This document shows positions 47,410 to 51,792 of a stretch of DNA of 64,000 nucleotides, piece by piece (position 1 is the first letter of the stretch; each line of letters starts with the position of its first letter). The position numbers and the translations under genes were made by a program. The notes beneath the pieces were generated by a model. That model worked only from the letters and a program-made list of their open reading frames with translations. It was not told the origin of the DNA and ran no database searches. The stretch is from the NCBI GenBank assembly GCA_937862815.1, contig CALMED010000002.1, positions 744,001-808,000 on the forward strand, given 5' to 3'. The DNA comes from an uncultured Chitinophagaceae bacterium (lineage in GTDB: Bacteria; Bacteroidota; Bacteroidia; Chitinophagales; Chitinophagaceae).

Positions 47410-48639
47410 ATGTCGCCCTTCGAATCCATCTCCTTCGACAACACGGCCAACGCATTTGAATACAAGTCGGACCGTCAGCTTAAAAAAGCCCATTTTCTTT
47501 TCTCCGCCATGTCGTACAGCTGGCTGGTGCAGGTGGGAGCCCGCATCACCCCCTGGGCCATCAAAGCCGGACTGCCCATCAACGGGCTGATCAAAAAAAC
47601 GCTGTTTGAACAGTTTGTGGGCGGCGAAACGCTGGAGGAAACAGCGCAGGTGGCCGATATGCTGGAAAAGTTTCATGTGCAGGTGATCCTCGACTACGGC
47701 GTGGAAGGCGGCGACTACGGCGAAGCCGAAAAAGATCACTCCCGCGATCAGTTCATCCGGGTGATTGATTATGCCGCCACCCAGGCTAATATCCCCTTTA
47801 TGAGCATCAAGGTAACCGGTATTTCCCGGTTTGACCTGTTGGCAAAAATGGACGACCTGATGCACGCCGAAACGGGTACACTCATCAAACGGTATGAGAA
47901 GGTGCTGGAACAACTGGGCCGTGAGGAAAAGGCGGAGTGGCAGCGCATCTGGGACCGCATGGAACTGATCTGCAGCACGGCGGCGGCCAAAAATGTGGGC
48001 GTGCTGATTGACGCGGAAGAGACCTGGATCCAGGACCCGGTAGATGCACTCACCATGCTGATGATGGACCGGTTTAACAAAGAAAAAGCCATCGTCTACA
48101 ATACGGCCCAGATGTACCGGCACGACCGCCTGCAGTTTGTAAAAGACTGCCACGAGGCGGCGGTACAACGCAACTTCATCCTGGGGATGAAACTGGTGCG
48201 GGGCGCTTACATGGAGAAAGAACGGAAGCGGGCCGCGGAAAAAGGCTATCCCTCACCCATCCAGCCGGATAAGGCCAGCAGTGACCGCGACTTTGATGCC
48301 GCGGTGGAATTCTGTATCAACAACATTGACCGCGTGGCGCTCATCGTTGCTTCGCACAACGAACACAGCAATATGCTCACCACCACCCTGATGGACCAGC
48401 GGGGCATCCGGCACGATCATCCGCATGTGCATCTCAGTCAGCTCTACGGCATGAGCGATCACATCACCTTCAACCTGGCCAAGGCCGGCTTCAGCGTAAG
48501 CAAGTACCTGCCCTTTGGTCCCATAAAAGATGTGGTGCCCTACCTTATGCGCCGGGCGCAGGAGAACAGCTCGGTTAAGGGCCAGACCGGCCGCGAATTA
48601 AGCCTGCTGCAGAAAGAAAAGAAACGCCGGAATTTATAA
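47410..48639 (+). CDS. Proline dehydrogenase
   Basis: FAD-dependent oxidation of proline to pyrroline-5-carboxylate, a TIM-barrel enzyme. The roughly 409-residue product has the PRODH signature elements: VILDYGVEGGDYGEAEKDHS, FMSIKVTGISRFDLLAKMDD, VGVLIDAEETWIQDPVDALT, MKLVRGAYMEKERKRA and LIVASHNEHSNM, with GFSVSKYLPFGPIKDVVPYL and MRRAQENSS at the flavin-binding C-terminus. It is monofunctional, as usual in Bacteroidota; no P5C dehydrogenase is adjacent. The start at 47410 follows a promoter box. tRNA-Val follows 13 bases after the stop. Confidence 0.92.
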   Translation: MSPFESISFDNTANAFEYKSDRQLKKAHFLFSAMSYSWLVQVGARITPWAIKAGLPINGLIKKTLFEQFVGGETLEETAQVADMLEKFHVQVILDYGVEGGDYGEAEKDHSRDQFIRVIDYAATQANIPFMSIKVTGISRFDLLAKMDDLMHAETGTLIKRYEKVLEQLGREEKAEWQRIWDRMELICSTAAAKNVGVLIDAEETWIQDPVDALTMLMMDRFNKEKAIVYNTAQMYRHDRLQFVKDCHEAAVQRNFILGMKLVRGAYMEKERKRAAEKGYPSPIQPDKASSDRDFDAAVEFCINNIDRVALIVASHNEHSNMLTTTLMDQRGIRHDHPHVHLSQLYGMSDHITFNLAKAGFSVSKYLPFGPIKDVVPYLMRRAQENSSVKGQTGRELSLLQKEKKRRNL

Positions 48640-48652
48640 TATTTGCAGCCAC

Positions 48653-48730
48653 GGACTGCTAGCTCAGTTGGTTCAGAGCACTACTTTGACAGAGTAGGGG
48701 TCACTGGTTCGAGCCCAGTGCAGTCCACCA
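48653..48730 (+). tRNA. tRNA-Val (anticodon GAC), CCA encoded
   Basis: Cloverleaf: acceptor GGACTGC/GCAGTCC, D arm with GCTCAGTTGGTTCAGAGC, anticodon stem CTACT/AGTAG around loop TTGACAG (anticodon GAC), T arm CACTGGTTCGAGCCCAGTG. Discriminator A is followed by an encoded CCA (48728-48730), unlike the tRNA-Asp in this window. Confidence 0.95.
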
Positions 48731-48812
48731 CTTCCCCGCTATTCGTTCACAACTTTCGCACAGGGGCCACCGCCTGTTCGGGCCCGGGTTGTATTCTCCT
48801 TATCTTGCGTCC

Positions 48813-49634
48813 ATGCAACAATACCAAGCTTTACTGCAACATATACTCGACAACGGGGCACAAAAACACGACCGCACCGGCACCGGCACCATCAGTGTGT
48901 TTGGCTACCAGATGCGGTTTGATCTGAGCGAAGGATTCCCGCTGGTCACCACCAAAAAAGTGCACCTGCGCAGCATCATCCATGAGCTGCTGTGGTTTCT
49001 GAAAGGGGAAACCAATATCCGGTACCTCAAAGAAAACGGGGTAAGCATCTGGGATGAATGGGCCGATGAAAACGGCGAACTGGGACCGGTGTACGGCAAG
49101 CAGTGGCGCAGCTGGGAAGGGCCCAACGGGGTGGTGGTGGACCAGATCAAAGAACTGGTGCAGCAGATCCGTAGCAACCCCGACTCCCGGCGGCTCATCG
49201 TCAGCGCCTGGAATGTGGCCGAACTGCCAAAGATGGCACTCATGCCTTGTCATACACTGTTTCAATTTTATGTAGCACCCCCTAACCCCCTGAAGGGGGA
49301 AGTAAAATCCAAACTCAGTTGCCAGTTATACCAGCGTAGTGCTGATGTTTTTCTGGGCGTTCCGTTCAATATTGCTTCGTATGCGTTGCTGACGATGATG
49401 ATTGCCCAGGTGTGCAACCTGCAGGTGGGCGACTTTGTACACACCTTCGGCGATGTGCACATTTACAACAACCACCTGGAGCAGGTGAAACTGCAGCTCA
49501 GCCGCACGCCGTATCCATTGCCCACAATGCAACTGAACCCGGACGTGAAAGATATCTTCGCGTTCCGCTATGAAGATTTCACGCTGCATAACTACCAGTG
49601 TCATCCCGCCATCAAAGCACCTGTTGCGGTATAG
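48813..49634 (+). CDS. thyA: Thymidylate synthase with an in-frame palindromic insertion
   Basis: Converts dUMP to dTMP using methylene-tetrahydrofolate. The 273-residue product has [31 protein letters not shown], the catalytic-cysteine motif [31 protein letters not shown] and [10 protein letters not shown]. Between FYVA and KLSCQ, where most ThyA have two residues, there are eleven ([11 protein letters not shown], about residues 156-166), encoded by DNA containing a CCCCC-TGAA-GGGGG palindrome (49286-49299). The loop is on the surface in known structures, so activity may persist. The ATG at 48813 matches the family N-terminus. An inserted element separates it from folA. Confidence 0.95.
49278..49310 (+). 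repeat. In-frame palindromic insertion within thyA
   Basis: About 33 bases, including CCCCCTGAAGGGGG with neighbouring CCCCCTAA, add roughly nine net residues to thymidylate synthase. The GC palindrome resembles small repeats scattered between genes in Bacteroidota genomes (recollection). No second copy was found in this window. Confidence 0.6.
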
Positions 49635-49710
49635 AAATGAAAAATGGGAAATGAAAAATTAAGAATTAAAAAGTTGGGCAGCCTCTAAAAGTGTAATAAA
49701 CATCACAAAA

Positions 49711-50094
49711 ATGGCTAAGGAAAAACACAAGTTTGACTTGGAAGACAGGTTGGTTGATTTTGCCTGCATGTGTCTCGATGTTTGTGATAAGCTGCCCGGT
49801 ACAAAATCTGGTCAGAATCTGGAATATCAATTGTCAAAAAGTAGTACAGCACCTGCTCTGATCTACGGTGAAGCTCAGGCTGCTGAATCAAGAGCTGACT
49901 TTATTCATAAAATGAAAATGTGTTTGAAGGAAATCAAAGAGTCAAGAATTAATTTAAAAATCATACGCCGCAAACCTGTTGTTGTTCATGAGAATGTTGA
50001 AAGAGCATTTAATGAAAGCAATGAGTTAATGGCCATTTTTCTGACGAGTATTGAAACAGCTGAAAGAAATGACGAAAGACGAAAGAGGCAGTAA
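49711..50094 (+). CDS. Four helix bundle protein (IVP family), second copy
   Basis: The 127-residue product is a divergent member of the family seen at 6807-7208. Its signature is IYGEAQAAESRADFIHKMKM followed by CLKEIKESRINLKIIRR (about residues 51-88), the other common flavour of this family. The N-terminus (HKFDLEDRLVDFACMCLDVC) is a helix typical of the group. No enzymatic residues are apparent; RNA or DNA binding is a guess. Codon use is AT-rich compared with thyA and folA. It lies inside an element with inverted ends, between two folate-cycle genes that would otherwise adjoin. Confidence 0.85.
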   Translation: MAKEKHKFDLEDRLVDFACMCLDVCDKLPGTKSGQNLEYQLSKSSTAPALIYGEAQAAESRADFIHKMKMCLKEIKESRINLKIIRRKPVVVHENVERAFNESNELMAIFLTSIETAERNDERRKRQ

Positions 50095-50114
50095 GCCGGG
50101 CTATTTTTCATATC

Positions 50115-50426
50115 TAATTCTTAACGTGTTGTGCTGTTAAAAGTCTTGAATTATTTTAGACTTGCTATTGATGAACGATATCAGGGCTCTACTGCTGGGC
50201 ACTACAGTAGTAATACAGCTAAATCCCCGCCTCAGCGGGGGACCCCTCCGCCATCGGGCTGTAATCGATGGCGGGGCCCTTTTTGGTTACTTTTTGGAAG
50301 CAAGTCGAAGATCCCGGCCGACAGAGTCGGGGCAAAAAGTAACGAAGAGACAAAATGTAATTGATAATCTAAACACAGCTATAAAATCAGTTTAATTTTT
50401 CAGTAGCACACCACGTTAATTCTTAA
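50115..50426 (+). repeat. Nested repeat with related ends and a 10-bp flanking duplication (copy C)
   Basis: Bases 50095-50444 hold no gene. The ends TTAACGTGTTGTGCTGTTAA (50121-50140) and CAGTAGCACACCACGTTAA (50401-50419) are inverted and match the ends of copies A and B. The 10-mer TAATTCTTAA occurs at 50115-50124 and 50417-50426, overlapping the ends, as a target duplication would. The interior differs from A and B: a GC-rich hairpin (50243-50276) followed by TTTTT, and an outer stem GTTACTTTTTG/CAAAAAGTAAC (50286-50296 with 50333-50343). Two 77-residue open frames here are judged spurious. Confidence 0.6.
50243..50285 (+). terminator. Terminator-like hairpin inside the thyA-folA element
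   Basis: CCGCCATCG (50248-50256) and CGATGGCGG (50266-50274) form a perfect 9-bp stem, extended by flanking C/G runs and followed by CCCTTTTTGG. If active it would end thyA transcription before folA. Confidence 0.5.
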
Positions 50427-50444
50427 TTTTTTATTTTTCATTTC

Positions 50445-50960
50445 ATGATTCTTTCGCACATCGTCGCCGCCGGCACCAACGACGCTATCGGAAAAAACAA
50501 CCAGTTGCTGTGGCACCTGCCGCAGGACCTGAAATTTTTCAAAAACACCACCTGGGCCATGCCGGTGATCATGGGGCGCAAGACTTTTGAGGCCGTGGGC
50601 AGCAAGCCGCTGCCCGGCCGGTACAACATCGTGGTAACCCGGCAGGACCCGTTGCCGGGCACACAGGAGAACCTGGTGTTTGTGCCCGATATTGCGGCCG
50701 CCATACAGGCAGCCACCGAAGCCACCGGGGCCAAAGAAATTTTCATTGCGGGCGGTGCCCAGATCTATGATCAAACTTTTGCACAGGCCGACCGCATTTA
50801 CATGACACGTGTACACGCCGCTTTTGAAGCCGACGCGTTTTACCCTGCTATTGACGCCACTGCATGGGACCTGCTGCAGAGCAATCATTTCAATGCCGAC
50901 GAAAAGCACGCCTACCCCTTCAATGTGCAGGTGTGGGAACGTAAAAAGCAGGTTGGGTAA
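50445..50960 (+). CDS. folA: Dihydrofolate reductase
   Basis: Reduces dihydrofolate to tetrahydrofolate, recycling the product of thymidylate synthase. The 171-residue protein has the family N-terminus (SHIVAAGTNDAIGKNNQLLW followed by HLPQDLKFFK), the NADPH motif MPVIMGRKTFEAVGSKPLPG, KEIFIAGGAQIYDQTF, and the C-terminal YMTRVHAAFEADAFYP. The catalytic acidic residue is the Asp of LPQDLKFF. The ATG directly abuts the right end of the inserted element, so its ribosome-binding region is supplied by repeat sequence. thyA lies 810 bases upstream. Confidence 0.95.
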   Translation: MILSHIVAAGTNDAIGKNNQLLWHLPQDLKFFKNTTWAMPVIMGRKTFEAVGSKPLPGRYNIVVTRQDPLPGTQENLVFVPDIAAAIQAATEATGAKEIFIAGGAQIYDQTFAQADRIYMTRVHAAFEADAFYPAIDATAWDLLQSNHFNADEKHAYPFNVQVWERKKQVG

Positions 50961-50991
50961 TTCAACTCTTCTTCATCTCATTTTTTTATTC

Positions 50992-51792
50992 ATGTACACG
51001 CCGTTGCAACTGGGTCTTAAGTATGCCCGTTATTACTGTACCGCCTCCAACGGGAAGGGGCACGGCATCCATTCGCCCTTTGTGTTTGAATTGGTAACCC
51101 GGGTGCTGAATGACCGCACAGTTTATGCCGATTACGGGCCGGTGGAAACGCTGCGGCAGCAGTTGCTCCAGGACAGGCGCGTGGTGGAAGTGGATGATTT
51201 CGGTGCCGGTTCGGTTACCGGTCTGCGGCGGCAACGCCGGGTGTGCGGCATTGCCCGCAGCTCACTCAAGCCACCCAAATACGCTCAACTTCTTTACCGC
51301 CTCGTACGCCACCTGCAGCCCCGCCGCATCCTCGAGTTGGGCACCTCCCTGGGTATTACCACCGCCTACCTGGCCAAAGGCGCCCCCGGGGCCGAAGTGG
51401 TGAGCCTGGAAGGCGCACCCGCGGTGGCCAAGCTGGCAGCGGCTAACCTGGCCGCCTTGCAGGCAGACAATACTGCAATCGTTTCCGGCAATTTTGATAG
51501 CACCCTGGCGCAGGTGCTTGCCGCAAATGCACTACCTTTCGACTTCGTTTTTGTGGATGGCAACCATCGTTACGAACCATCGGTCCGCTATTTCCGCCAA
51601 CTGGCAGAACAGGCTGGCCCTGATACGGTACTGGTGTTCGACGACATTCACTGGAGCCGGGAAATGGAAGAAGCCTGGAACGAGATCTGCTCGGCTTCGG
51701 GCGTACGTCTCACCATTGACCTGTTTTTCATTGGCCTGGTATTTTTCCGGACCGAACAACTGGAGCGGGAACATTTCCGGATCCGGTTCTGA
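50992..51792 (+). CDS. Class I SAM-dependent methyltransferase
   Basis: About 266-residue soluble methyltransferase of the Rossmann type. The SAM-binding motif ILELGTSLGITTAYLAKGAP is near residue 104, VVSLEGAPAVAKLAAANLAA follows, and the acidic post-motif FDFVFVDGNHRYEPSVRYFR and VFDDIHWSREMEEAWNEI resemble O-methyltransferases of the catechol-like group. The N-terminus (LKYARYYCTASNGKGHGIHS) is basic. The start at 50992 fits; the longer open frame overlaps folA. Substrate is unknown. It lies 31 bases after folA. Confidence 0.8.
   Translation: MYTPLQLGLKYARYYCTASNGKGHGIHSPFVFELVTRVLNDRTVYADYGPVETLRQQLLQDRRVVEVDDFGAGSVTGLRRQRRVCGIARSSLKPPKYAQLLYRLVRHLQPRRILELGTSLGITTAYLAKGAPGAEVVSLEGAPAVAKLAAANLAALQADNTAIVSGNFDSTLAQVLAANALPFDFVFVDGNHRYEPSVRYFRQLAEQAGPDTVLVFDDIHWSREMEEAWNEICSASGVRLTIDLFFIGLVFFRTEQLEREHFRIRF

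Follow-up and report, generated by a model that had tools for sequence, protein, structure and literature searches.

An S23-family gene between inverted heptamer arrays in a thyA–folA spacer: a candidate operon-inserted element of the intervening-sequence type

Anatomy of the thyA–folA spacer and its S23 gene

The window, a 64-kb stretch of DNA, carries an S23-family gene between the co-directional genes thyA and folA, enclosed by a pair of inverted repeat arrays (Table 1). The thyA stop codon occupies positions 49632–49634 and the folA ATG begins at 50445, with a unit of 811 nt between them that includes the last base of the stop. An inverted pair of end blocks around a four-helix gene, reaching from the thyA stop to the folA ATG, had been predicted from the sequence (hereafter the original prediction), and the pair is real, with 28 nt of each arm (49642–49669 and 50416–50443) showing 89% complementarity. 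The ends are not plain blocks, however, but degenerate tandem units of 7 nt, which in the left arm read AAATGAA, AAATGGG, AAATGAA, AAATTAA and GAATTAA. Across the 64-kb window a lag-7 scan returned three period-7 arrays at the chosen threshold, two of which are the arms of the element. An Rfam search of 48500–51000 returned only one tRNA and one sub-threshold match, and the element lies between protein genes rather than in an rRNA gene. A scan for gene-less hairpins in the window, with partners within 700 nt, reported none; it missed even the S23 element because the arms are ~745 nt apart and exceed this partner limit. Within thyA itself, an in-frame CCCCCTAACCCCCTGAAGGGGG palindromic repeat at 49277–49304 adds residues that 12 of the other 13 genomes in the genus lack, and the thyA of one genome (G008) has a different insert at this place.

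Table 1. Features of the thyA–folA locus, in window coordinates
Feature	Position	Strand	Remarks
thyA	48813–49634	+	upstream gene, co-directional; from ATG; start in the ORF list is an earlier TTG, 48789
Left arm, degenerate heptamer array	49634–49672	+	AAATGAA-type units; first base is the last of the thyA stop
S23/IVP four-helix-bundle gene	49711–50094	+	127 aa
Right arm, inner part	50099–50124	+	ATTTTTCATATCTAATTCTTAA at its end; lies left of the MITE-like repeat; compare loci L049, L050, L054
MITE-like repeat of ~299 bp within right arm	50121–50419		inverted ends of TTAACGTGTTGTGCT type
Right arm, outer part, inverted heptamer array	50416–50444	+	last base adjoins the folA ATG
folA	50445–50960	+	downstream gene, co-directional

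The right arm is interrupted by a MITE-like repeat with 15 further matches across the genome, some of them partial; it is flanked by TAATTCTTAA direct repeats (50115–50124 and 50417–50426). Three relatives share this S23 gene and its site, and their thyA–folA gap, at 505–514 nt, lacks the ~299-nt insertion. Judged from its copies and from these shorter gaps, the repeat is a separate, later insertion that splits the right arm. The outer boundaries predicted for the element, 49634–50444, stand, but the whole interval as a single element is ruled out, since 50121–50419 is a repeat in its own right.

The S23 protein exceeds the cut-off of TIGR02436 (‘four helix bundle protein’) with 54 bits against 24, and matches PF05635 with 29 bits, below the cut-off of 33.8. 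Its AlphaFold2 model, computed from a 17-sequence alignment, consists of four helices with a mean pLDDT of 93.7 and matches the S23 structures 2rld and 2gsc; the TIGR02436 score and this fold bear out the predicted family. With weaker E-values the model also resembles the accessory protein Avd of diversity-generating retroelements (DGRs; 4dwl, 8ub7), including Avd within a DGR ribonucleoprotein, the likeness to 4dwl amounting to a TM-score of ~0.7 by query length with 12–14% identity and E-values of 0.03 or above. A profile built from 14 S23 proteins and compared with PDB sequences found 2rld and 2gsc alone at E ≤ 0.01, and Pfam bAvd was matched by seven of the 19 S23 members scanned. Of 18 pairs, the 12 with defined dS had a dN/dS ratio no higher than 0.18, and in the remaining six synonymous sites were saturated with dN of at most 0.15. 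At the folA site the non-synonymous distance was 0.05–0.14 against a synonymous distance of 0.68–0.90. On these substitution rates, the S23 gene is under purifying selection. A role in anti-phage defence was considered and rejected, with no PADLOC matches for the two proteins scanned, and a single S23 query used to look for phage carriage gave no match among 50,697 phage records.

Inverted heptamer arms around other S23 genes

Matches to PF05635 were present in 116 of the 148 Bacteroidota genomes sampled, including the genome of the window, which has nine. To score the flanks of each S23 gene, the upstream flank was aligned to the reverse complement of the downstream flank and compared with mismatched flank pairings. 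In the own genome this covered eight loci, L015 being left out as it equals L014 in score and length on a separate contig, and the self pairing beat all 36 mismatched partners at seven of the eight. The exception was L013, and the advantage was narrow at L009 (13.0 versus 12.5) and L012 (12.5 versus 12.0). Over all loci of this first comparison, the self pairing was best at 20 of 37. Among 101 S23 genes from the own genome and its relatives, 78 had a self score above the 95th percentile of the mismatched pairings and 55 one above the 99th; for 80 named loci from several phyla, 79 of them usable, the corresponding numbers were 59 and 32.

For a further control, 2151 intervals of S23 size were drawn from other parts of the loci that contain the S23 genes. 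Against it, the flanks of 165 of 194 S23 genes, from several phyla, exceeded the 95th percentile and those of 143 the 99th, the 194 genes not being independent because orthologues are included. With thresholds fixed, a hold-out of 30 phylum-wide loci gave 21 above the 95th percentile, 18 above the 99th and nine below the lower mark. S23 genes without paired inverted flanks, which would have told against the original prediction, are thus not the rule, yet 29 of the 194 did not rise above the control 95th percentile. Among 29 plasmid records with an S23 match, five were inspected, all cyanobacterial, and arms were seen in four and none at L230. Two heptad-armed S23 genes on two cyanobacterial plasmids (L229, L232) lie between cas6 and cas4, one of them adjoining a type I-D cas1d.

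A repeat period of 7 (also 14 and 21) is present in both S23 flanks, and it is missing from the far flanks and from the S23 gene itself; units of 8 or 9 are apparent in a few elements, such as L191 and L196. Where an array is clear (98 left and 101 right arms) the median is 4.7 units per arm. The unit differs among elements and is common to both arms of each, although unrelated elements sometimes have a similar one, and the order of unit variants is kept between the arms: for 110 of 124 elements the actual order scores higher than the mean over permutations of the units. A fixed terminal inverted repeat common to all copies was rejected, as arm sequences differ between elements and are alike mainly among close S23 relatives. 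On this comparison the arm ends are element-specific, and a genome search with the end sequences, as originally suggested, would find close relatives of the element only. Between differently grouped sites, the cross-arm score averaged 18.2 where S23 identity was at least 80% (n = 10) and 9.6–9.7 where it was below 50%. This supports arms owned by the element less strongly than the figures suggest, because several of the ten pairs are orthologous loci of related species (for example L122/L177, L166/L176 and L161/L178); L100/L103, also among the ten, pairs the genomes G012 and G011.

Some individual loci depart from the common layout. The window contains a second S23 gene (L012; 6897–7184, minus strand) with weaker arms and, by eye, a period of ~9 nt. 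The left arm of L204 has eleven perfect copies of GGGCAAT beside a degenerate right arm, perhaps a recent expansion of the array. Further heptad hairpins, made of the unit of the respective element, stand beside the S23 gene at L149, L151, L114 and L074, as if they were nested gene-less copies. The S23 matches L014 and L015, on contigs C10 and C19 of the own assembly (G000), are near-identical in offset on contigs of similar length, and may represent a second strain in the assembly, for which the listed contamination is 8.5%.

Presence, absence and movement among relatives

The state of the thyA–folA site was judged by eye in 14 genomes of the genus, including that of the window. A full element is present in four, a remnant in one, a solo heptamer array in one and a short empty gap in three. 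Two others (L055 in G007 and L058 in G013) have a gene-less heptad hairpin of ~70 nt with CAGATTG/CAGATTT units, possibly a non-autonomous form, and the last three (L052, L057, L059) a CCCC-type (CCCCTAAAGGGG-type) repeat pair that apparently lengthens the folA frame. In a tree of thyA and folA, neighbouring species differ in site state. The comparison of related junctions called for at the outset thus produced empty sites, and the contrary outcome, all relatives sharing the same gap and gene, did not occur.

The distribution of S23 genes is likewise sporadic between close relatives. S23 matches number 16 in the genome G011 and seven in G012, a close relative, of which 13 and five respectively were covered by the comparison. 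Nine of the 13 G011 loci had no DNA match among the five of G012; eight of these nine sites could be located in G012, and none of the eight matched across S23. Six of the G012 sites have 26–120 nt between matching flanks and two have other sequence. One short site (L226, at the L074 site) carries a CCCC-type repeat pair, and the retention of arm-like sequence at some of the short sites suggests loss. At L092/L221 the element replaces the entire spacer from stop to start. Rapid evolution of spacers could account for part of such replacement, and gain and loss are not polarised site by site.

Different elements are also found at one site between near-identical neighbours. At the site shared by L061 and L062 the neighbouring genes are 95 and 98% identical, S23 is 59% identical and the arms differ; L083 compared with L018, L019 and L021 at another site shows neighbours at 90–98%, S23 at 43–44% and again different arms. 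Many different gene pairs are hit, and 26 same-site families were distinguished among 120 elements. One genome has two copies (L217 and L218) that are 80% identical over 455 columns between unrelated flanks, their homology starting at the left arm and stopping no more than 4 nt from the right one. The TGA that closes the upstream gene frame (403 and 406 codons) lies inside the element in both copies. By eye, neither L217/L218 nor the filled and empty pairs showed a target-site duplication. The idea that a unit resembling an intervening sequence (IVS) can sit in a protein operon is well supported by this comparative anatomy, that is, by the empty sites of relatives together with the paired inverted flanks around most S23 genes; its suggested RNA-level action and effect on folA are still proposals.

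Orientation, predicted RNA pairing and interpretation

Among 193 elements with both flanks, with the longest open frames rather than annotated genes taken as neighbours, S23 was co-directional with both neighbours in 168, antisense in 11, between opposed genes in 13 and unassigned in one. The 30 hold-out loci divided into 24 sense, one antisense, four opposed and one unassigned. S23 is antisense at two of the five annotated plasmid loci (L230, L231). The sense bias may reflect only selection for S23 expression.

In predicted RNA folds of 150 of the 168 sense elements, using flanks of 25–180 nt, pairing of at least 15 bp between left and right arm formed in 79% with the element's own flanks versus 16% when the right flank was swapped. 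For the window transcript a stem of 31 pairs is predicted between 49637–49669 and 50416–50446, with the thyA stop and the folA start at its base. Folding-out of the element at the RNA level is plausible on these models. The mismatches in 77 arm pairs showed no excess of the G-U-compatible kind (52, against 68 of A-C type), and no compensatory or lineage-specific co-variation was found, the arms of orthologues pairing across genomes as well as within them. With both tests negative, selection for pairing itself is unproven. The left arm, assessed alone in 37 of 47 orthologous pairs at a synonymous distance of at least 0.6, had a mean identity of 0.72, compared with 0.48 for shuffled flanks and 0.26 for synonymous identity. 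Such conservation of the arms as sequence would be explained more readily by a protein that recognises them than by pairing alone, with repeat homogenisation as the alternative.

The locus is probably best explained as a mobile element of the IVS type inserted in an operon, in which an S23 gene between inverted, element-specific heptamer arrays occupies the thyA–folA spacer. At the level of sequence, what is established comprises the arms, the heptads, presence and absence, the transposed pair, the sense orientation, the constraint on S23 and a predicted capacity for pairing; excision from the RNA, binding to the heptads and regulation of folA are put forward as possible consequences. In a thyA–S23–folA co-transcript the arms would form a stem of ~31 bp that brings the thyA stop and the folA start together, and this stem might be cut by RNase III, in the manner of rRNA IVSs, whose excision is not followed by ligation, or be tolerated as a fold-out. 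A pentamer of S23 would bind the heptad stem in cis, which would keep S23 under selection, and S23 would take part in mobility by some route. The pentameric state comes from the structure of a relative's protein (Xanthomonas), as cited in PMC4990558, and the median of 4.7 units per arm is suggestive only of one subunit per heptad.

Short intergenic units with inverted ends and gene-less derivatives are familiar as MITEs and as palindromic repeats of the REP/BIME type, and the S23 elements resemble them in all of these respects. The element could on this basis be a MITE-type DNA transposon in which S23 is a passenger, mobilised in trans by a transposase, and RNA pairing is incidental, as the unit at two sites of one genome (L217/L218), the empty sites, the gene-less hairpins at the thyA–folA site (L055, L058) and arm mismatches free of G-U preference would all allow. 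We consider this unlikely, given that S23 elements have 7-nt tandem arrays in place of fixed ends, that these ends differ between elements, that no target duplication is visible by eye in L217/L218, and that the S23 gene they carry is constrained and strongly sense-biased (168 versus 11).

That S23 and stem form a resident module, inherited vertically as an attenuator or expression controller of the operon and not mobile, would account for same-site orthologues whose arms are conserved even though the synonymous sites of S23 are near saturation, and for the sense position between co-directional genes. It is harder to reconcile with presence that varies between neighbouring species, with the replacement of one element by another between near-identical neighbours and with the range of gene pairs hit, and is accordingly held improbable. 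Hardly credible is the view that the spacer is merely AT-rich and of low complexity, its inverted similarity due to chance and the small gene next to it unrelated: the window arms are AT-rich and arms are undetectable at a minority of S23 genes, but two of only three period-7 arrays in 64 kb are the arms, arms elsewhere (L016, L035, L044) are not AT-rich, and control distributions are exceeded at most S23 genes.

The operon-inserted element is therefore preferred, and as the same layout with differing heptad units surrounds most S23 genes examined, it looks like a widespread, little-noticed mobile element. A wider reading is offered tentatively: S23/IVP genes in general might be unrecognised RNA intervening elements of operons, with private heptad stems read by their own Avd-like pentamers, co-diversification of protein and stem, and transposase-free spread into stop–start junctions, of which rRNA IVSs, and perhaps the Nostoc trnL heptad stem, would be special cases. 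If S23 normally belongs to heptad-armed operon elements, the rRNA cases make up a small part of a wider system, and numerous natural pairs of element and empty site could be used to test the role of S23. The question also touches on the tolerance of operons for small insertions and on where the Avd proteins of DGRs came from.

The searches of open-licence literature turned up no account of S23 elements with heptad arms in operons. Among the closest counterparts is the 23S rRNA IVS of Coxiella burnetii as described in PMC4990558, which likewise has an S23-family gene and complementary ends able to form a stem. There, two or three tandem heptamers and a degenerate one precede S23, in a copy number that varies between strains; there is a terminal stem of 28 bp, and RNase III cleaves where the first repeat begins. 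The same account calls the role of rRNA IVSs and S23 proteins little known. IVP genes are also reported in rRNA insertions of CPR bacteria (PMC11270868), and S23-encoding rRNA IVSs share the sporadic distribution seen here. Unlike the rRNA IVSs so described, the present elements lie between protein genes and have heptads in both arms, in units that differ between elements. No rRNA was found at the 20 of 80 named S23 loci scanned with Rfam, so that these data hold no link of their own to rRNA IVSs.

Heptamers recur in other settings. A paper whose main text does not use the word S23 reports direct repeats of the heptamer TAACTGA from Beggiatoaceae, cyanobacteria and some Bacteroidetes (PMC4679880). 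The P6b stem of the tRNA-Leu(UAA) group I intron of Nostoc and Calothrix is built on one of two seven-nucleotide motifs, the Class I and Class II repeats, and undergoes indels of repeat units and shifts between the two classes (PMC4476775). Its heptads sit in a loop of a self-splicing intron, and the available portion of that text mentions no S23, unlike the elements described here; by analogy, the P6b heptad stem may be related to them. PF05635 has been noted as Avd-like (PMC10053308), and the S23 protein of the window shares with Avd of DGRs the four-helix fold of its predicted model, beside the Pfam bAvd matches of other S23 members.
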